Position numbers and translations under genes: made by a program
Notes under the pieces: model-generated
What the model saw: the letters and a program-made list of their open reading frames with translations, nothing else
What the model was told of the DNA's origin: nothing
Databases searched by the model: none
From: Vibrio sp. NTOU-M3
GTDB taxonomy: Bacteria > Pseudomonadota > Gammaproteobacteria > Enterobacterales > Vibrionaceae
Direction of reading: 5' to 3'
DNA: 64,000 nucleotides
Assembly (NCBI RefSeq): GCF_040869035.1
Contig: NZ_CP162101.1
Span: forward strand, 62,001-126,000
Shown here: one piece after another, positions 55,764-64,000 of the stretch
Position numbering within the stretch: position 1 is the stretch's first letter
Layout of the letters: each line of letters opens with the position of its first letter

Positions 55764-57086
55764 TCAGGATTCAAAATTAAAAACATACGACAACCCATCG
55801 ATGAGGCCTCCGCGCCAACACAGGCGTTCATGCCCACCATCAAAGGTGCGAAACGATAACCGATGGTTTTGTTGCTTAAGTTGCTGGTATAGGTCTTGGC
55901 TCAAGTCCACCATGACGTCCTCTCCTAATCCAACCTCCATAAACACACTTAACTTTACGTTAGAACCAAGGCCAGAATGAACTAATTGACTCATTTGAGT
56001 TAAAGGTTCGCTTGTTTGGAAGGGAGAATATTCACTAGGTGGTTTCACTAACGAAAAATCAGGCCACCAAAATGAACCCGATTGACAAACAACCGCACCA
56101 AAACGATCCGGATGGTTCAATCCGGCATACATCGCACTTAAACCACCAAGGCTTTGCCCAACAACAGCCGTACGATTTGCGTCATTAGTAATTGGGAAAT
56201 AACGACCAACCAACGGCAGTAGTTCTTGAGTGATAGCCTGCCAAAACAAAGGGTTGCAACTGAGCTCTTCGCTACGCAGCGCTCCATTGATTTCATCAAT
56301 GAAGACATACAAGGCAGGTGGAAGTTGACCGCTGCTCGTCGCATCGGTCAGCGCACTAAACAAAGGCATGGATTGAGACCAAAATTGACCATCTAAGATC
56401 AAAACCAACGGCAGTTCAGCTATTTGGTCAGTGCTGGCTGTCGAATACAACCAAACATGGCGCTCATTACTTAAACACTGGCTCGTCCAAGTCAGCTGCA
56501 TGTTCGCTCGTGCCTGAACATCGCCATTTTTTGTATCGAACCTTGACCAAGCACTTTGCGATACTGCCTTTGGCATAGATAGCGGCGTTTTCGAACGTCC
56601 CCATTCGCAGGCTGACAAATTGTTTTTACTTAAATCATCGCGAACACTAAGAGGAAAAATGGTTCTCAACCACTCCCGATGCTTGGTGCGTTTCTCTTGG
56701 TATGTTCCTTGGTACGCTGGTTGGACGCGTTCATGTGTTACTGGAATAAACGCGTAGCTCCCCCGCCACGTACTGTTTACCCTTGTCTTATAAAACCAAA
56801 CATCCGTTCCTTTAACATGGGTAAGCCTTTCCATATCAAAGCTGTGATGATCAGTAATACCGTTGATATCAATGTATATTTCTTCAACACTGTCATCCGT
56901 GTTTCGCCAAAGAAATAGCAGCTCAGCACTTGTATTATCTTGGGAAAGGATAAAAGGTGTTCCTTTTGTCTGCACCTCGTCCCACCAACATGGAGCTCCT
57001 ACTTCTTCATTAGCTTCAAGCAAACCACTTAAAGCACTATTGATATTCTTATTTTCTATTGTTCGATAAGCCTTTATATCCATCAC
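55764..57086 (-). CDS. vabH: Enterochelin-esterase-like siderophore hydrolase
   Basis: A 440-residue Fes-family esterase. An N-terminal beta-sandwich (about 1-160, WWDEVQTKGTPF...WRGSYAFIPV) precedes an alpha/beta hydrolase domain with the nucleophile elbow VGQSLGGLSAMYAGL and the catalytic histidine in GGHERLCWR. It should cleave serine ester bonds of an oligomeric ferri-siderophore in the cytoplasm to release iron, which fits a product that is at least partly oligomeric. First gene of the esterase-mbtH-NRPS operon. The symbol vabH is by context. Confidence 0.87.
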   Translation of the reverse strand: MMDIKAYRTIENKNINSALSGLLEANEEVGAPCWWDEVQTKGTPFILSQDNTSAELLFLWRNTDDSVEEIYIDINGITDHHSFDMERLTHVKGTDVWFYKTRVNSTWRGSYAFIPVTHERVQPAYQGTYQEKRTKHREWLRTIFPLSVRDDLSKNNLSACEWGRSKTPLSMPKAVSQSAWSRFDTKNGDVQARANMQLTWTSQCLSNERHVWLYSTASTDQIAELPLVLILDGQFWSQSMPLFSALTDATSSGQLPPALYVFIDEINGALRSEELSCNPLFWQAITQELLPLVGRYFPITNDANRTAVVGQSLGGLSAMYAGLNHPDRFGAVVCQSGSFWWPDFSLVKPPSEYSPFQTSEPLTQMSQLVHSGLGSNVKLSVFMEVGLGEDVMVDLSQDLYQQLKQQNHRLSFRTFDGGHERLCWRGGLIDGLSYVFNFES

Positions 57087-57165
57087 AAATCCAACTTGTA
57101 CGTCGAAACTTCATGCATATCTTCTAGTAATGAGGTAGCACAAACTTATATCATTATTGTTGTAA

Positions 57166-57184
57166 ATAATAATAATTATCATTA
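57166..57184. promoter_or_regulatory. Fur box in the esterase/receptor divergent promoter
   Basis: AATAATAATAATTATCATT, about 14 of 19 consensus positions, in the 184-bp gap between the esterase operon (minus) and the receptor gene (plus). Confidence 0.68.
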
Positions 57185-57270
57185 GTATTATTGCCGCAAC
57201 ACTTTTTTACATAAATGTTGTTACAACATCAAATGTTTTCTTCTTTTTTTTATTAAGGAATACTCAGGTC

Positions 57271-59346
57271 ATGAAGCCCATGGATTTAAACAGTGGCATC
57301 ACCATCACTAATACTGGCAAAACTAAACTTGCCATGCTCATTGGTGTAATTTGCCTTGGAGCCAGCACCACTCTTTCAGCAGAGCAAGTGGACAACAGCA
57401 ACACGAAGAAAGGCCAAGAAACCATTGTGGTACTTGGTGAGAAACTCGGTGGTACACTTGCTGAGAACACAAGCTCAGTCACCGTTTTTACTGATGAAGC
57501 AGACAATGGCGAAGATCAAACATACTACGATCTACTCGATCGCGTCCCGAATGTACTGAATGCCCCATCTGGTATTCCACATATTCGAGGTGTAGATGGT
57601 CGTGGACCTGGTGAAGGCTTCCTTTCCTTCATGACAGGAGCGACACCAAGGGTGAATACGACCGTTGATGGCGTGTCAGAGTCATGGACTGGTGAGGCCT
57701 TTGGTAAAGCCGGATTGTGGGATACAGAACAAGTAGAGATTTATAAAGGCCCTCAATCAACCAACCAAGGCCGAAATAGTATTGGCGGCGCGGTGGTCAT
57801 CAAAACCAAAGATCCAACGTTCCACTTTGAAAGTAAAGTTCGTGGTGGCTATGAAAACGAAGATGGCAAATATCATTTAGCGGGTGTTGTTTCTGCCCCA
57901 ATCGTGTCTGAAAAGCTCGCATTTCGATTAGCCGCTGAGGGCACAAAGGGTAATACACCAATTGATTACTCGCTGCCCGATAATGACCAATATCCATGGG
58001 ACCCTTCTGAAGTTGAATCTCATAATGTGAGAGGTAAGCTGTTATTCAAACCGATGTCTAACGATAAGCTTACGCTAAAACTGACATTGGCGAGCCGTAA
58101 TGAAGAAGGTCAATATACAAATCTGGTTTCTGAAAAAGGCAAGTTTGAATATATCGATGAAAACGGTACTCGACGTCAAACCACTGAAAGTTGGAATGCA
58201 AATTTTGACGTAAATTACCTGATCAATGATGAATTAACCCTTGATGTATTGCTTGCGCGCCGGGACTACAATACGAAATTCAAAGCTTATCCACGTACGG
58301 ACTGGTGGGGTGATGTTGATGAAAAAAACTACACCGCAGAAGCGAAGCTGTCTTATAACTCGTTAGATGACAAATACAATGCCATTGTCGGGGTAAGTAG
58401 TTTTTACAAAGATCAAGATACGCAAACAGACTCGATGAAGCGTAAAGATAAAGTTCTGACCAACTCAATTTACTTCGATTCAAAAGTCCAACTCAACAAC
58501 CGTTGGGGCTTGCTACTTGGCGCTCGTTACGAAAAAGATGAGCTGAAGCGTGATTTTGACCACGCAAGGTTCCCACTCGATTTCAATGCCGATGAAAGTA
58601 ACGGTATTTTGCTACCAAAAGTCGGTGTAACGTTAAATGTATCAGACAATTCAATGCTTGGGCTTACTGCTCGTAAAGGATACAACGCTGGCGGACTTGG
58701 GTACAACGAGTACCAACAACAGGTGTTTGTGTTTGAGCAGGAAGAAGTCTGGACTTATGAGCTAAGTTCCCGTTCAACTTTCCTTGAAAATAGACTTGGT
58801 TTAACTGCAAATGTCTTCTACAACGACTATGAAAACTATCAAACGGTCGTATTTGGCGACAGTGGAAATCGTTTCGACAATTACATCGCAAACATCCCTA
58901 AAGGAAAAACATACGGTACTGAAGTTGAAACCAATTACTGGTTTGACTCAGGTCTGGACGTATTCGCATTTGTAGGCTTGTTAAAAACAGAAATCACCGA
59001 AGGGCCAAGCGGTACTATTGAAAACTTAAATGGGAATGAGTTCAGCTATGCACCTGAAGTGTCGGCAGGTCTTGGTTTTACCCAGCAGCTAGATTCGGGC
59101 ATTTTCTTTGGTGCTCGTGTTAATCACGTAACGGATTACTTTACAGATCTCGCCAATACCCGAAGTACGTCAGCAGGCGACTTCACAATATTAAATCTTA
59201 ATGCAGGTTATGCCATGGATGATCTCACCATTCGAGCTTACATTAAGAATGCAACAGATGAAGATTACGTTCTTCGCCATAAGAATGATCTTATCGAAAT
59301 GGGCGGACCTCGTACATTCGGCCTTGTGGCTGACTACCAATTCTAA
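57271..59346 (+). CDS. fvtA: TonB-dependent ferri-siderophore receptor
   Basis: A 691-residue outer-membrane receptor. The signal peptide is followed by a TonB-box-like segment (QETIVVLGEKL), a plug domain (YYDLLDRVPNVLNAPSGIPHIRGVDGRG...VEIYKGPQSTNQGRNSIGGAVVIKTKDP) and a 22-strand barrel with C-terminal GGPRTFGLVADYQF ending in Phe. Context makes it the receptor for the siderophore made here, equivalent to FvtA for ferri-vanchrobactin. The signal region starts with an unusual ~15-residue polar extension before the hydrophobic core. Confidence 0.88.
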   Translation: MKPMDLNSGITITNTGKTKLAMLIGVICLGASTTLSAEQVDNSNTKKGQETIVVLGEKLGGTLAENTSSVTVFTDEADNGEDQTYYDLLDRVPNVLNAPSGIPHIRGVDGRGPGEGFLSFMTGATPRVNTTVDGVSESWTGEAFGKAGLWDTEQVEIYKGPQSTNQGRNSIGGAVVIKTKDPTFHFESKVRGGYENEDGKYHLAGVVSAPIVSEKLAFRLAAEGTKGNTPIDYSLPDNDQYPWDPSEVESHNVRGKLLFKPMSNDKLTLKLTLASRNEEGQYTNLVSEKGKFEYIDENGTRRQTTESWNANFDVNYLINDELTLDVLLARRDYNTKFKAYPRTDWWGDVDEKNYTAEAKLSYNSLDDKYNAIVGVSSFYKDQDTQTDSMKRKDKVLTNSIYFDSKVQLNNRWGLLLGARYEKDELKRDFDHARFPLDFNADESNGILLPKVGVTLNVSDNSMLGLTARKGYNAGGLGYNEYQQQVFVFEQEEVWTYELSSRSTFLENRLGLTANVFYNDYENYQTVVFGDSGNRFDNYIANIPKGKTYGTEVETNYWFDSGLDVFAFVGLLKTEITEGPSGTIENLNGNEFSYAPEVSAGLGFTQQLDSGIFFGARVNHVTDYFTDLANTRSTSAGDFTILNLNAGYAMDDLTIRAYIKNATDEDYVLRHKNDLIEMGGPRTFGLVADYQF

Positions 59347-59352
59347 CAACAC

Positions 59353-59375
59353 AAAGGGCTCCGCTGGAGCCCTTT
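59353..59375 (+). terminator. Terminator after the receptor gene
   Basis: AAAGGGCTCC-GCT-GGAGCCCTTT, a perfect 10-bp stem 7 bases after the stop; only a pyrimidine-rich, not pure T, tail follows. Confidence 0.75.
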
Positions 59376-59559
59376 CCTTCTCATTGAACCTTTACTAACT
59401 TCAGTTTTAAGTTTTTATTAATACCAAATTTAAGACAAACCTAATAAACCTTGGCGTAACTAAGGACATATCGCGAGTCCAAACTTTCGTTTATAGCGAG
59501 TCAATTGTTCGTCTTCTATCTAATAATTGACAGTTCTGATAATTATAATGGACAGACCT

Positions 59560-60558
59560 ATGACGAAACAAATAACTAGACTTTCTACACTCGCGATCGC
59601 TTGCATTTCTGCCTTTTCAATGGCCAACGATACCATTGAGAATCGCGATAATCGTGCACAAACAGTGGCAGACGTCATCACCCAATCTGGTGTCTTAACA
59701 CCAAAGGGGCGATTTAACGTCGAAACTTCTTTGAGTTACACCCAAAACTCATCGAACAAGGTTTCTGTTGTTGGCTACACCATCCTACCTACGCTCATCG
59801 TCGGCCGAATTGAAGTCAGTGATTCTGACCGAACCACTATAACAGCAGGCTTAACCGCACGTTATGGTTTAACTGAAAGTACGGAATTGGAACTTCGGCT
59901 CCCTTTCGTATACAGAAATGACCAAATATCAACAAGGCCAATTCAAGATGGTGCAGCTGCAAATACGATCAATACAACACTTGATGGGGGTGGATTAGGC
60001 GATATTGAATTTGCAATTCGCCACCAGATTAACTTCCAAAGCACACCATATTGGATCGCAGGTGTGAAAATAAAAAGTGATACCGGGCGTTCTCCCTATG
60101 AGGTTGATATCGACACAACAACCAATACATTCACCGAAGTTCCAACTGGGTCAGGGTTATGGAGTGTAGAGCCAAGCGTCACCATGATCTACCCTACCGA
60201 CCCCGCCGTGCTGTTTATGAACCTTGGGTACATCTACAACATTGAAGATGATGTCAGTGTCGGGGGCGAAAACGTTAAAGTCGATATCGGAGATACCCTA
60301 TCATTAGCTGCAGGGTTAGGTTTTGCCGTGAACCCCGATCTGTCTTTGTCGTTTGGCTTAAACCACAAGACCATCTTAAAAAGTAAAGTGAATGGTGAGG
60401 AAAGTGATGATGCAAAATTGCTTCAATTGGATACCATCAGTATAGGGATGAACTACGCCTTTTCTGATCAAACCTCTATCAACGTCAGTGCTCAAGCAGG
60501 CCTCACTGAAGACTCTCCTGATTTCCAATTGACCATGCGTGTTCCGTTCACCTTTTAA
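59560..60558 (+). CDS. Outer-membrane beta-barrel protein, FapF/MetA-phenol-like
   Basis: A 332-residue exported protein: signal peptide MTKQITRLSTLAIACISAFSMA, a short polar linker, then alternating beta-strands with the family-like stretch SGVLTPKGRFNVETSLSY...SVVGYTILPTLIVGRIEVSD...LTARYGLTESTELELRLPFVYRND, ending in Phe. Barrels of this kind include FapF, the pore that exports Fap amyloid in Pseudomonas; the long N-terminal coiled coil of FapF is not evident here. The ATG at 59560 gives a clean signal peptide; upstream in-frame ATGs (59548, 59527) are poorer. It converges on the amyloid-like operon, so a secretion role is inferred from context. Confidence 0.72.
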   Translation: MTKQITRLSTLAIACISAFSMANDTIENRDNRAQTVADVITQSGVLTPKGRFNVETSLSYTQNSSNKVSVVGYTILPTLIVGRIEVSDSDRTTITAGLTARYGLTESTELELRLPFVYRNDQISTRPIQDGAAANTINTTLDGGGLGDIEFAIRHQINFQSTPYWIAGVKIKSDTGRSPYEVDIDTTTNTFTEVPTGSGLWSVEPSVTMIYPTDPAVLFMNLGYIYNIEDDVSVGGENVKVDIGDTLSLAAGLGFAVNPDLSLSFGLNHKTILKSKVNGEESDDAKLLQLDTISIGMNYAFSDQTSINVSAQAGLTEDSPDFQLTMRVPFTF

Positions 60559-60576
60559 TACCCTTTTTATCCACGC

Positions 60577-60607
60577 AAAAAAATCCCCCTTGTCATTGGG
60601 GGATTTT
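60577..60607. terminator. Bidirectional terminator between barrel gene and amyloid-like operon
   Basis: An A-run, then AAATCCCCC / GGGGGATTT around an 8-base loop, then TT: a symmetric hairpin between convergent transcripts. Confidence 0.82.
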
Positions 60608-60631
60608 GAATTGCTTTGAGTTATGTTTCTC

Positions 60632-61222
60632 TCAGTACAATTGCATTTGCAGCGCTTCTTGTAAGCGAAGGTTAGCTCTCAAATCTCGGAGTGCACCACT
60701 CACCTGTGAATCAATATCTACCACAGTATTGAGCCCAATCACGCTATCATTTTGCGTATTCTGAACCACATGACTCAACAATGTAGCCCCCTGATTTACA
60801 GCTAGGTGACTCACAACAGGTGTGCTATCAATTGGCTCTATATTCGATGGCTGGGTAGTTTCACTCTCGACCACGGGCAAGCTATTTTCTGTCGATTCGG
60901 TTGGAACCACCTGATTATTCTCGCCAACCTGCACGACATTTACGCCACTGTCTGCTATCCCTGAAGAAATGATCTGCCCATTACGAATTACCAGATCAGC
61001 AATGTGCGAATTAAAAATTGTATTTCCGTTAATAGAGGTAACAACACTCAACCCAATATTAACGACATAATCATTCGCAACACCAAAACCGCCACGATAT
61101 TCCATCAATTCAACATCAGTCAGCGGATTCAGCGTGAGCAGGGAGCTCACTTTTGCTTGAACATTGCCTGCTACCGAAAATGAAGCTAAGGCAATCAGAA
61201 GCACCCTAATGAAGTTAGACAT
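60632..61222 (-). CDS. Exported protein with double-glycine leader, Fap-like cluster
   Basis: A 196-residue protein with signal peptide ending NVQA (residue 23). Twenty residues later is LTDVELMEYRGG (34-45), which reads as a bacteriocin-type double-glycine leader, then FGVANDYVVNIGLSVVTSINGNTIFN. The middle (about 105-135) is Ser/Thr/Glu/Pro-rich, and Asn/Gln-rich segments (NVVQVGENNQVV; SHVVQNTQNDSVIG) resemble the motif in the sister proteins. I know no named family. It is the last gene of the operon, 3 bp after the C39 peptidase gene. Probable roles are minor fibre subunit, nucleator or chaperone. Confidence 0.72.
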   Translation of the reverse strand: MSNFIRVLLIALASFSVAGNVQAKVSSLLTLNPLTDVELMEYRGGFGVANDYVVNIGLSVVTSINGNTIFNSHIADLVIRNGQIISSGIADSGVNVVQVGENNQVVPTESTENSLPVVESETTQPSNIEPIDSTPVVSHLAVNQGATLLSHVVQNTQNDSVIGLNTVVDIDSQVSGALRDLRANLRLQEALQMQLY

Positions 61223-61225
61223 AGG

Positions 61226-61903
61226 TTAATATTCTCCTGACTCCGGCAAAGTGATAGTGAATTGGCCGATCGAGTCTCGAGGCAGTGAGCTATCCAATGG
61301 TGCTCGGTTGTAAAGTCTATACTGGGCCACATCAATGAAGGTTTCTTTTCCTACCTCTGCATGATTGCGAACTAGCAATACAATGCCCTGATAAAACTGA
61401 ACAAACTTGGTCTTGCTCATCACTATTGTCCCTCGAGAAGGGTCACCTAATATCACGTCACTTTGATTGATACCTTTCACCACAACGAAGTGACGGTAAC
61501 CATCAAAATCAACCAGAGTAATGACCGGTAATCCAATCGACTCTATCTTCTCCAACGTCAGTTTATACCCTTCTGACTTAAATCCTTGACTCATCAAATA
61601 CCGCTTCATATCAAGTAACGAAAAGCCCTGTTTTTCAATAAGTTCCCGATTGCCATTTGCGAACATCGCTTTAAATATATCGGCTTCATCTTTGGGGGTT
61701 CGATAATGATAGGTCAGCAGTGATGCTAATGCCGCAGAGCCACAACTGAAGTCATACTGTTGGCGAATCACATCACCAAACTGTATTTCTTTATAGCTTC
61801 TAACAGGCACCTGAAAACTTCCTCTTTCAGGCAACCAATTTAAGGCGGCCGCATAGCAAGGTGTGAGTAAAACAAACGAAATGAAAAATTGCCGGAGTTT
61901 CAT
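61226..61903 (-). CDS. Periplasmic C39-family cysteine peptidase (FapD-like)
   Basis: A 225-residue peptidase with a signal peptide (hydrophobic core FFISFVLLTPCYAAA), so it acts in the periplasm. The C39 catalytic set is intact: Gln49 and Cys54 in RQQYDFSCGSAALASLL, His138 in YRHFVVVKG, Asp154 in ILGDPSRG. It is a stand-alone protease, not fused to an ABC exporter as in bacteriocin systems; FapD of the Pseudomonas Fap amyloid system has this form. The genes on either side encode exported proteins with double-glycine motifs, the cleavage site used by C39 enzymes. Confidence 0.88.
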   Translation of the reverse strand: MKLRQFFISFVLLTPCYAAALNWLPERGSFQVPVRSYKEIQFGDVIRQQYDFSCGSAALASLLTYHYRTPKDEADIFKAMFANGNRELIEKQGFSLLDMKRYLMSQGFKSEGYKLTLEKIESIGLPVITLVDFDGYRHFVVVKGINQSDVILGDPSRGTIVMSKTKFVQFYQGIVLLVRNHAEVGKETFIDVAQYRLYNRAPLDSSLPRDSIGQFTITLPESGEY

Positions 61904-61904
61904 T

Positions 61905-62231
61905 TTACTTAAGTGTTAAATTAACAACGGTGGAATTTTGAATCAGCACATTGTTACCGCTGTTCTGGATAACGTTCGTGATCCCTGAACTTGCTGCTAA
62001 CGCACCAGCAGCAATGGTATTGTTTCCTGTAACCACATGCTCGGCTACGTTACCTGAACTGATTCCTTCCACGGTTGAGGTTGCCGCGATGCTGTCGAGG
62101 TCAATGTAATACTGACCACCACGAGAGCTGTCCAGTTCTGTTTCAGACAGCTCAAAGTCAGTCAGCACTAGATCATCAGCATACGCAAATGTTGGAATGA
62201 GTAATCCCAAGACGAACAGTGCTAAACGCAT
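61905..62231 (-). CDS. Small exported protein with double-glycine leader
   Basis: A 108-residue protein: signal peptide to Ala18 (TFAYA), then DDLVLTDFELSETELDSSRGG (19-39), a double-glycine leader that aligns without gaps with that of the 196-residue protein, then a mature part of about 69 residues. The mature part ends with SGITNVIQNSGNNVLIQNS (82-100), a Gly/Asn/Gln motif shared with the repeat-rich protein encoded upstream. The low complexity and alternating Asn/Val pattern suggest a small fibre-forming subunit. It lies 1 bp before the C39 gene. Confidence 0.74.
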   Translation of the reverse strand: MRLALFVLGLLIPTFAYADDLVLTDFELSETELDSSRGGQYYIDLDSIAATSTVEGISSGNVAEHVVTGNNTIAAGALAASSGITNVIQNSGNNVLIQNSTVVNLTLK

Positions 62232-62246
62232 GGCGAATCCCTCTAC

Positions 62247-62840
62247 TTACTTGGTAAACACAGAGGCGTTAGTGGTTACGGCTTGTTGCACCATAGAATT
62301 GGCCCCAGCATTTTGACCAACCGTTGTAATACCTGCTGTACCAGAGAATCCGTCTAGTGAGTTAGCACTTGAGACACGCTGATAGCCTAACAACGCAAGC
62401 TGGGTATTCGTTGCCGAAACGTTTGAAATACTACCGTTAAGATCGGCATCTGCGACTACCATATCGCTTTCTAAAGAAATTGATGTATTGGTTGTCGTAG
62501 TTGTCGTATTCAAACTGTCTGACCATGAATTGTTACCATCGTCACCATTTTCGTTATAGCTAAAGCTATTACCATCATCACCACCACCAATTGTCGTGGT
62601 GTTTCCATCGTTTCCGTTCTCGTTATAACTGTTACCGTCATCACCATTACCGATGGTCGTATTGGTGTTGGTATGGTTATGCGTGTTGTTGTTACTAGCG
62701 ACTGCGTTGTTACTTAATACATCATTGTGACTGGCTACATCATCACTACCAAAGGAATCATTAGAATTATTTGCTAACACGGCACCGCTGAATAGAAGAG
62801 CGGACACTGCTACTGCCAAGCCTGTTTTTTGTAGATTCAT
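62247..62840 (-). CDS. Repeat-rich exported protein, candidate amyloid subunit
   Basis: A 197-residue protein with signal peptide ending AVLA (residue 23). It contains two tandem Asn/Gly/Asp repeats: TTIGNGDDGNSYNENGNDGN (61-80) and TTIGGGDDGNSFSYNENGDDGN (82-103), a Thr-run, and a C-terminal region with GITTVGQNAGANSMVQQ (170-186). The composition (Asn, Gly, Ser, Thr, few charged or aromatic residues) is typical of functional amyloids. It lacks the R-G-G leader of the two sister proteins. The ATG at 62840 has GGAGTG 8 bases upstream; the longer open frame has no support. First gene of the operon. Confidence 0.76.
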   Translation of the reverse strand: MNLQKTGLAVAVSALLFSGAVLANNSNDSFGSDDVASHNDVLSNNAVASNNNTHNHTNTNTTIGNGDDGNSYNENGNDGNTTTIGGGDDGNSFSYNENGDDGNNSWSDSLNTTTTTTNTSISLESDMVVADADLNGSISNVSATNTQLALLGYQRVSSANSLDGFSGTAGITTVGQNAGANSMVQQAVTTNASVFTK

Positions 62841-62893
62841 AATATTCACTCCATCGTGTTTTGAAGGTTTTGTCCTTTCGATATGCCCGAAAG

Positions 62894-62970
62894 CAAAGTG
62901 ATTATAGGAATCTATGCGCCACAAAAATTCTCATAAATGAGATGGCATTTTACGCAACTCATAGAATGAG
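62894..62970 (-). promoter_or_regulatory. Promoter of the amyloid-like operon with tandem palindromes
   Basis: The minus strand has a perfect TATAAT (plus 62901-62906) with a poor -35 (about 62923-62929). Directly upstream are two copies of one palindrome: CTCATAAATGAG at 62930-62941 and CTCATAGAATGAG at 62958-62970, each followed by AT on the plus strand. A weak -35 with adjacent operators is the layout of an activator-dependent promoter. The CsgD/LuxR-type regulator encoded divergently is the obvious candidate; this link is inference. Confidence 0.6.
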
Positions 62971-63041
62971 ATAATACGAAGGTTAACAAAGATATTTAGT
63001 TACTAAATTTCATAGGCTTACTGTCGGCTTATTAGAAAAGT

Positions 63042-63305
63042 ATGAAAAAACCCATGGAATTAGCATTAGATTTCTATCACCCAAATCGAGCAGGTCTAAT
63101 ACTCTTTGTTGCGCAACAGTAAAAGGGGGAAACCGATCATACTAACTGGGAAAAAAAAGACCAATCAAACCTTATTTTATTAGCAAAACGTTTATTACTA
63201 ATAAATAAATCTAAACCTGACGACTACTCAAAAATGGCTATCTCTACAACCTATTTACCATTTTTAAAACGCTTTCAAGAGTTTAACTTATACTTCAATC
63301 AATAG
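63042..63305 (+). pseudogene. Possible gene relic with one in-frame stop
   Basis: Starting at ATG 63042 the frame reads MKKPMELALDFYHPNRAGLI...FVAQQ, meets TAA at 63120-63122, then continues open in the same frame for about 60 codons (KGETDHTNWEKKDQSNL...YLPFLKRFQEFNLYFNQ) to TAG at 63305. The peptide looks protein-like but matches no family I know, and no ribosome-binding site is clear. It may be a decayed gene or chance in AT-rich DNA. Confidence 0.25.
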
Positions 63306-63306
63306 G

Positions 63307-63322
63307 ACGTTATTCATAACGT
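63307..63322. promoter_or_regulatory. Palindrome upstream of the CsgD-like regulator gene
   Basis: ACGTTAT-TC-ATAACGT, a perfect 7-bp inverted repeat 46 bases before the ATG, in the position of an operator or promoter-proximal site. Confidence 0.4.
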
Positions 63323-63367
63323 ATCTAAATACAACGTTTTATTGGCTATGCATACGGAAAGGCTATT

Positions 63368-64000
63368 ATGGCTCCAACAACGCTCGTCATTCTGTCGGAC
63401 AACAATTTGCAAAGTAACTTAATCGAACAACAGCTTTTATGTTTAAGCGATGTTACGACTACCGCCGTGCATCCAGATAAGTTCAATCACCTTTGCAGTC
63501 GATTGACGATGGACTTGGTGATTCTCGATTTTCATTACCTCACCTACCTTGAGGATCTCGACATACTGCCTGATTTTGACCTACTTAATCTTGATATATT
63601 GGTTTACAACATTCCAGAATTGGGGCTTAACCACCCTTTTGTTCGCTGGCGCACATTAAGAGGGATGATCCTACAAACTGCGTGCGCGCAACACTTAATT
63701 GATGGTGTGAAATGTATTTTACAAGGTGGTATGTGGATACCACGACGGTATCTGGAAGAATTGATCATGCTTTATCGAGATCCGAGTAACATACGCGATT
63801 GCAGCTTTGATCAACTGACCGAAAGGGAGCGGCAAGTCCTCGATTTAGTGGTTCAGGGAAGCACAAACAAAGAGATCGCAAAGTTGCTATACCTATCAGA
63901 AAACACCGTTAAAACACATATTTACAAGGTATACCGCAAACTTAATGTCCACTGTAGAAGTGAAGCCAGCAAACTGGTTAAGCAAGCTCGAGGAAATAGC
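63368..64000 (+). CDS. CsgD/VpsT-like LuxR-family regulator (3' end outside window)
   Basis: At least 211 residues, open to the window edge. The N-terminal half is a receiver-like domain (TTLVILSDNNLQSNLIEQQLL, MDLVILDFHYL). The C-terminal LuxR helix-turn-helix is FDQLTERERQVLDLVVQGSTNKEIAKLLYLSENTVKTHIYKVYRKLN. In VpsT the linker helix carries W[FLM][TS]R, which binds cyclic di-GMP; here the aligned text is GGMWIPRRYLEEL, a deviating version. AAGG lies 8 bases before the ATG. Family members control curli, cellulose or Vibrio polysaccharide; its position makes the amyloid-like operon a likely target. Confidence 0.85.
   Translation, partial: MAPTTLVILSDNNLQSNLIEQQLLCLSDVTTTAVHPDKFNHLCSRLTMDLVILDFHYLTYLEDLDILPDFDLLNLDILVYNIPELGLNHPFVRWRTLRGMILQTACAQHLIDGVKCILQGGMWIPRRYLEELIMLYRDPSNIRDCSFDQLTERERQVLDLVVQGSTNKEIAKLLYLSENTVKTHIYKVYRKLNVHCRSEASKLVKQARGNS

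Follow-up and report, generated by a model that had tools for sequence, protein, structure and literature searches.

What does a C39 peptidase cut when it stands alone in the periplasm, apart from any ABC transporter? The question is raised by a locus within a 64,000-nucleotide stretch of Vibrio sp. NTOU-M3 DNA (the whole stretch analyzed, hereafter the window), in which the gene of such a peptidase is flanked by genes for two exported proteins. According to the open reading frame (ORF) list and the translations, the three genes follow one another on the minus strand as 61905-62231 (108 aa), 61226-61903 (225 aa, C39), and 60632-61222 (196 aa); "upstream" and "downstream" refer below to the 108-aa and 196-aa positions relative to the minus-strand peptidase gene. 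A preliminary description had these three genes as they are found here and omitted two likely parts of the locus, a FapC-like protein and a FapF-like protein.

The locus and its stand-alone peptidase

59548..60558, plus strand: FapF-like outer-membrane barrel that lacks FapF's N-terminal part; the ORF is open from TTG 59527
60632..61222, minus strand: 196-aa exported protein with signal peptide, RGG leader, and then predicted strands; FapE-like by position and leader
61088..61123, minus strand: leader core LTDVELMEYRGG, residues 34-45 of the 196-aa protein; a helix is predicted at 36-42, ahead of RGG, and the first strand at 53
61226..61903, minus strand: stand-alone C39 peptidase with signal peptide, FapD-like, Gln48/Cys54/His138/Asp154
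61905..62231, minus strand: 108-aa exported protein with signal peptide, RGG leader, and one C-terminal Fap-like repeat GITNVIQNSGNNVLIQNSTVVNL (likeness by eye)
62115..62150, minus strand: leader core LSETELDSSRGG, residues 28-39 of the 108-aa protein
62247..62840, minus strand: FapC-like exported low-complexity protein (N/G/D/T-rich) with one C-terminal Fap-like repeat; ORF also open from TTG 62924
63368..64000, plus strand: VpsT/CsgD-type LuxR regulator (PF21155, 29.4 bits, cut-off 27), running off the window

The peptidase passes the gathering score of PF03412 (Peptidase_C39) with 76.4 bits against a cut-off of 22. The complete Gln/Cys/His/Asp set and the signal peptide first ascribed to it were borne out: Cys54 was located by counting, and Gln48, Cys54, His138, and Asp154 are all present and invariant in an alignment of 41 stand-alone homologues of our own selection. 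It reaches 140 bits with the FapD equivalog model NF058616, below the cut-off of 330, and is filed as FapD-like, not FapD; with the FilB model NF050078 it reaches 111 bits, below the cut-off of 475. In PCATs the C39 domain is fused to ABC transmembrane and ATPase domains; here the peptidase is a 225-aa stand-alone protein. The folds closest to its predicted model are those of PCAT1, ComA, and a peptidase-leader complex. Unlike PCATs (PCAT1, ComA, and structure 6mpz, which we take to be LahT), the window system has no transporter domains, its enzyme and putative substrates would both be periplasmic, its leader comes after a Sec signal peptide, and the last leader residue is relaxed.

At the level of its genes, the locus as a whole resembles the Fap amyloid system of Pseudomonas. 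Both have a periplasmic C39 enzyme (FapD in Fap), a FapF-type barrel, N/Q-containing repeats, and a protein in the FapE position directly downstream of the peptidase; the leader spacing that we observe in FapE is also that of the window. Unlike FapF, the window barrel lacks the N-terminal part and is encoded on the opposite strand, and it matches NCBIfam FapF NF058560 with 163 bits over positions 96-420 of 420 (cut-off 700). The 196-aa and FapC-like proteins have no NCBIfam match (FapE NF058559, FapC NF058558), no FapA was seen, and the window has an extra small subunit with an RGG leader upstream of the peptidase.

A leader of this type was not seen in the sequence of the FapC-like protein (62247-62840), which has no match in Pfam or NCBIfam. 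Pfam gave no match for the 108-aa protein and none above cut-off for the 196-aa protein, for which AsqO_C was rejected at 18.3 bits (cut-off 27); Rfam gave no match over 56000-64000. A barrel homologue is present in 49 of 50 long window-type loci (defined below), with the peptidase gene on the other strand in 49/49, and a homologue of the VpsT/CsgD-type LuxR gene in 20/50; judging by association only, this gene is likely the regulator of the locus. TonB-dependent receptor-like and esterase-like genes adjoin the locus at 55764-59346; inspected by eye in the sequence, they appear siderophore-like and unrelated.

Candidate leader tags beside window-type peptidases

The signal peptides of the 108-aa and 196-aa proteins are followed by LSETELDSSRGG (residues 28-39) and LTDVELMEYRGG (residues 34-45), hereafter called tags; counting in the translations confirmed the Gly38-Gly39 and Gly44-Gly45 leaders reported at the outset. 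When set against the C39 leader consensus M(R/K)ELX3E(I/L)X2(I/V)XG(G/A), as it stands in the accessible part of PMC3140520, the window tags have L, E, L, G, and G at matching positions, and position -4 is S or Y, not I/V. A scoring matrix made from 101 tags of relatives, window excluded, gave the two tags scores of 28.5 and 20.5, and the next of the window's 37 signal-peptide-like ORFs a score of 6.6; shuffled N-termini of other loci score 12 or more in 0.007% of cases. Signal peptides were called by our own rule (a hydrophobic stretch plus a basic n-region), not by SignalP; the rule found 41/65 downstream proteins, and counts by homology were used instead for the family.

The preliminary description proposed a search for the tag beside stand-alone, signal-peptide-bearing C39 genes in general. 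Over the loci and the window, a relaxed GG consensus is matched by 67/498 distinct signal-peptide ORFs near stand-alone C39 and by 0/794 elsewhere (58/447 and 0/703 with duplicate loci removed), counts that include related loci and a consensus relaxed after the tags had been seen.

For an unselected count, we turned to the family, taken as Vibrionaceae. A window-type peptidase was found in 68 of 296 genomes searched, two of them broken, and 66 window-type loci were read, the window's own copy included; they were chosen without regard to the tag, and the best homologue per locus was likewise taken irrespective of it. Genomes G137 and G072 were left out, as was locus L035, whose peptidase frame exceeds the length limit. 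The downstream protein is present in 66/66 loci and ends its tag in RGG in 65 and in RAG in one (L014), with L or M at position -7 and Phe at +1 in all 66. The upstream protein is complete in 65 of the 66 loci (in L011 it is cut by the contig) and has RGG in 52, RGK in 5, RGT in 3, RGQ in 3, RGR in 1, and RAG in 1 (L053); position -7 is M or L in 65/65, -4 is Ser in 49/65, where the consensus has I/V, and E is in the minority at -8. Homologues without the motif next to the peptidase had been named as evidence that would speak against a leader; instead, RGG is kept in 65/66 downstream proteins and RG-x in 64/65 upstream proteins, and both exceptions are RAG. Because the loci are related, these numbers do not represent independent events; at 90% identity, the peptidases of the 66 loci fall into 44 clusters. 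Positions conserved at ≥97% number 13 in the downstream and 17 in the upstream protein, tag residues among them; the C-terminal repeat is also among them, and the tag is thus not the sole conserved part. In alignments A3 and A4 the sequences were picked by a recognized tag, which makes their invariant R-G partly a matter of choice.

The 196-aa family goes with the peptidase. It occurs in all 68 genomes with a window-type peptidase and in one further genome of the 296, as a 58-residue frame with a stop. A protein search with the 196-aa protein alone returned 3 proteins, and the profile search of genomes did better; a contig scan of genomes with the window peptidase gave 8 loci, with V. hepatarius and V. 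nereis as named matches. In two genomes, G072 and G201 (L078), the peptidase gene is broken or split yet tagged neighbors are kept (in L078; in G072, the 196-aa homologue only). A comparison of 25 enzymes whose downstream protein has RGG with 13 of RGR/K type gave class-specific residues including 49, 50, 56, 142, 144, 156, and 157; the two classes coincide with clades, and no conclusion on specificity is drawn from these residues.

FapD, FilB, and their neighbors

The NCBIfam FapD model matched in 93 of 398 Pseudomonadota genomes, 8 of them over the cut-off, and the best 48 matches were of stand-alone size; those below were nearly all of ABC-transporter size and were left out, together with a 408-aa frame (G344:C179). 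In 14 control genomes the model matched in 7, none over the cut-off, as expected from ABC-type C39 domains. The best 48 matches, minus three already in the family set, fell into 43 loci, which were joined by 4 loci of Sphingomonas and 4 canonical-looking Fap loci of the family itself to give 51 other loci. The canonical-looking loci (L055-L058) come from 4/296 family genomes; of these, G163 carries a window-type locus as well.

A matrix trained on window-type loci only was applied to these 51 loci, "near" meaning on the peptidase strand within -3.5/+2.5 kb. At a score of ≥9 it picked 42/214 distinct signal-peptide ORFs near the peptidase versus 1/473 elsewhere, the lone elsewhere match being the FapF-like protein of L097; shuffles score ≥9 in 0.19% of cases, and at least two of the 42 near matches look spurious (L079, 429 aa, in the FapC position; L087, 373 aa, overlapping the end of the signal peptide). 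Without the signal-peptide filter, a same-strand match is found in 37/51 loci and an opposite-strand match in 1/51. Among the 14/51 loci below the threshold of 9, the tag is visible by eye in 10 (L037, L103-L105, L107, and L115-L119); in the remaining 4/51 (L110, L112, L113, and L121) a tag near the peptidase was not seen by matrix or eye. Two of these four, L112 and L113, are FilB loci, and DUF6160 genes are found in other parts of their genomes. In L087 and L100, modules of subunit and peptidase are tandemly duplicated.

Among the FapD neighbors, the downstream protein of L083 is FapE (NF058559, 345 bits, cut-off 250). A search with 12 FapE sequences gave at least 1572 homologues; the best 120 were listed, the named ones all from Pseudomonas or Pseudomonadaceae, and all 120 of these carry [LIV]-x-D-x-x-[LM]-x-x-[LM]-R-G-[RK], which ends at residue 40 in 119. 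Across 12 divergent FapE proteins the -2 Gly is invariant and the preceding Arg nearly so. In L100, a protein distantly homologous to the 196-aa protein matches FapE over 1-52 only, with 21.4 bits. In the accessible portion of PMC5557850, FapD is described as acting in the periplasm, FapE as the only Fap protein with complete N-terminal processing, and the Fap proteins as lacking canonical C39 sequences; the paper reports no FapE peptides from roughly the first 70 residues, where the tag extends to residue 40, and finds FapA peptides throughout the protein. The substrate of FapD was "yet to be determined" in 2018 and open also in 2017; a GG in FapF was noted in 2016, cleavage of FapF near a GG has at one time been proposed, and a 2025 review has FapE and FapF "thought to" be processed (available passages of PMC6173800, PMC5135000, PMC5557850, and PMC12822426). 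These passages leave the substrate open or suspect FapE and FapF; the initial remark was that the substrates of stand-alone C39 enzymes such as FapD are not known to be established as GG-leader proteins.

Other Fap proteins contain stretches that recall the tag. FapA-position proteins of L079, L083-L086, and L089-L093 have a mid-protein leader-like stretch, roughly [LM]-x-D-x-D-[FYI]-x-x-[VMLI]-x-[SGA]-[GA] (for instance, LSDSDFAGVTSG), in which the -2 Gly is mostly missing. FapA is reported as unprocessed despite this stretch, and may therefore be a pseudosubstrate of FapD. In FapB-like proteins of L087, L089-L095, and L097, a weak leader-like stretch (for instance, IDGNALAGASGA) immediately precedes IAVNQAAGD, the first amyloid repeat; it is missing from the FapB of Pseudomonas in L083. 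FapF-like barrels of L097, L103, and L105 have tag-like sites (LAPDDLVTMRGR, IGTEVLATKRGG, and IAPSQLDRLRGT) within their first 70-105 residues.

The putative FilA-FilB-FilC pilus (NCBIfam names) also has a stand-alone C39 enzyme (FilB), a barrel (FilC), and exported FilA/DUF6160 proteins with the same leader spacing. The window proteins are far below the Fil cut-offs, TGQ takes the place of RGG, and DUF6160 proteins are also scattered genome-wide. FilA-like proteins of L114 and L119 (NF050077, PF19657) and four DUF6160 proteins beside FilB (L115-L118) carry [ML]-x-D-x-x-[LM]-x-x-x-T-G-Q after the signal peptide. PF19657 (DUF6160) is found in 10/398 genomes, including all 8 with a FilB-like C39 (p ~3e-15, relatedness ignored). 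This FilB group was drawn by eye and then confirmed with the FilB model, which gives 283-310 bits in the 8 genomes and about 130 for the next best, none over the cut-off of 475; one of the eight (G550) has an internal stop. Several DUF6160 matches span only the N-terminal part (about positions 8-50), as would be expected if the family is partly a shared leader on different bodies.

Proposed maturation route and alternatives

We favor with good confidence the reading that the locus encodes a Fap-like amyloid or fimbria export system with two-step N-terminal maturation, in which signal peptidase would act first and the periplasmic C39 enzyme would then remove a bacteriocin-type leader. Since the tags come after signal peptides and the peptidase has a signal peptide of its own, processing would take place in the periplasm, independently of any ABC exporter, which supports the separation of C39 cleavage from ABC export suggested in the preliminary description. 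Sec would carry the subunits across the inner membrane, where the signal peptide would be removed; the C39 enzyme would bind the second leader, which is predicted to form a short helix and is conserved at -12, -7, and -4, and, from family knowledge and conservation, would probably cut at the RG-G/x junction. Removal of the leader may ready the 108-aa and 196-aa proteins to pass through or activate the FapF-like barrel, and the FapC-like protein, which has no such leader, would rely on these accessory proteins once they are released. The corresponding sites would make FapE a substrate of FapD and the FilA/DUF6160 proteins substrates of FilB. The predicted model of the 196-aa protein (26 sequences), which is weak (mean pLDDT 73.8, pTM 0.47), has a helix at 36-42, a mean pLDDT of 60 over residues 41-50, and a first strand at 53, and is compatible with a leader that is helical, followed by an exposed junction and a body rich in strands; a fold search with it returned nothing significant (best E 1.2).

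The term "double glycine" is too narrow for the RGK, RGT, RGQ, or RGR ends of 12/65 upstream proteins, the RGR/RGK of FapE, and the TGQ of FilA. The -2 Gly is nearly constant across tags and the last residue is not. That P1 is not Gly/Ala in FapE (R/K), FilA (Q), and 12/65 upstream proteins counts against the favored reading, as do the -4 and -8 residues of the upstream family, the published statement that Fap proteins lack canonical C39 sequences, the FapE and FapA peptide data, the four loci in which no tag was seen near the peptidase, and the low FapD score of the window peptidase. Either the enzymes tolerate R/K/Q at P1, or they may cleave directly after the Gly, ahead of the variable last residue.

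The variation at P1 lends something to an unlikely alternative, in which the C39 fold or FapF would read the tag as a signal for docking or export and leave it uncut, the peptidase serving as a chaperone. Chaperone roles are known for some C39-like domains in type 1 systems, and with R, the -2 Gly, and -7 kept while P1 varies (G/R/K/Q/T), the constraint on recognition appears tighter than that on the scissile residue. However, the catalytic residues are invariant in the 41 aligned peptidases, and, as the available text of PMC5557850 has it, the FapD C38A mutation abolishes FapC secretion in the Pseudomonas system, the catalytic Cys thus being needed, and FapE is found without its N-terminal peptides. 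Another reading, which we consider quite improbable, takes the tag for a structural feature preserved within a single family of homologous subunits and having nothing to do with the peptidase. The upstream and downstream family profiles do cross-match, making common ancestry of some subunits possible, but the tag precedes dissimilar bodies (the 196-aa protein, the 108-aa repeat protein, FapE, and DUF6160), is nearly absent elsewhere in the same loci, and has no fixed spacing from the signal peptide (6-24 residues downstream among the values listed, by a crude cleavage rule; tens of residues in L103-L105, L107, and L108). A bacteriocin or microcin maker whose C39 protein has been split off from a PCAT exporter would share the leader spacing, but is hardly credible with signal peptides on the putative substrates and the peptidase, an operon without an ABC transporter, and a FapF-like barrel and repeats in its place.

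Beyond the window, two-step maturation by a Sec-then-C39 route is probably general in Pseudomonadota: FapD, FilB, and window-type C39 enzymes of the periplasm would process bacteriocin-type leaders of Sec-exported surface-fiber proteins, the route would have a code of its own (RGG, RGR/K, TGQ), the FapD site of FapE would lie at about residue 40, and FapA would mimic a leader as a pseudosubstrate, a role that would account for both its regulatory effect and its lack of processing. What we take as new is the leader code, together with the FapE site and the window-type locus; Fap-like export with a periplasmic C39 enzyme was known before. No description of a leader of this kind was found in the accessible parts of the non-subscription literature on FapD/FapE, FilA/FilB, C39, double-glycine leaders, and DUF6160. 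The RGR/RGK ends may explain why searches for "GG" in Fap proteins missed the leader, and, being trypsin sites, they would keep tryptic mass spectrometry from separating a FapD cut from a trypsin cut. The weight of the finding lies in FapE, a suspected FapD substrate, having a leader of the same spacing: a 12-residue site extends from Vibrio relatives to Pseudomonas FapE, recognized by a matrix that never saw Pseudomonas. It would set C39 leader processing apart from ABC export and offers a testable answer to what FapD, a protease of amyloid biogenesis, cuts.
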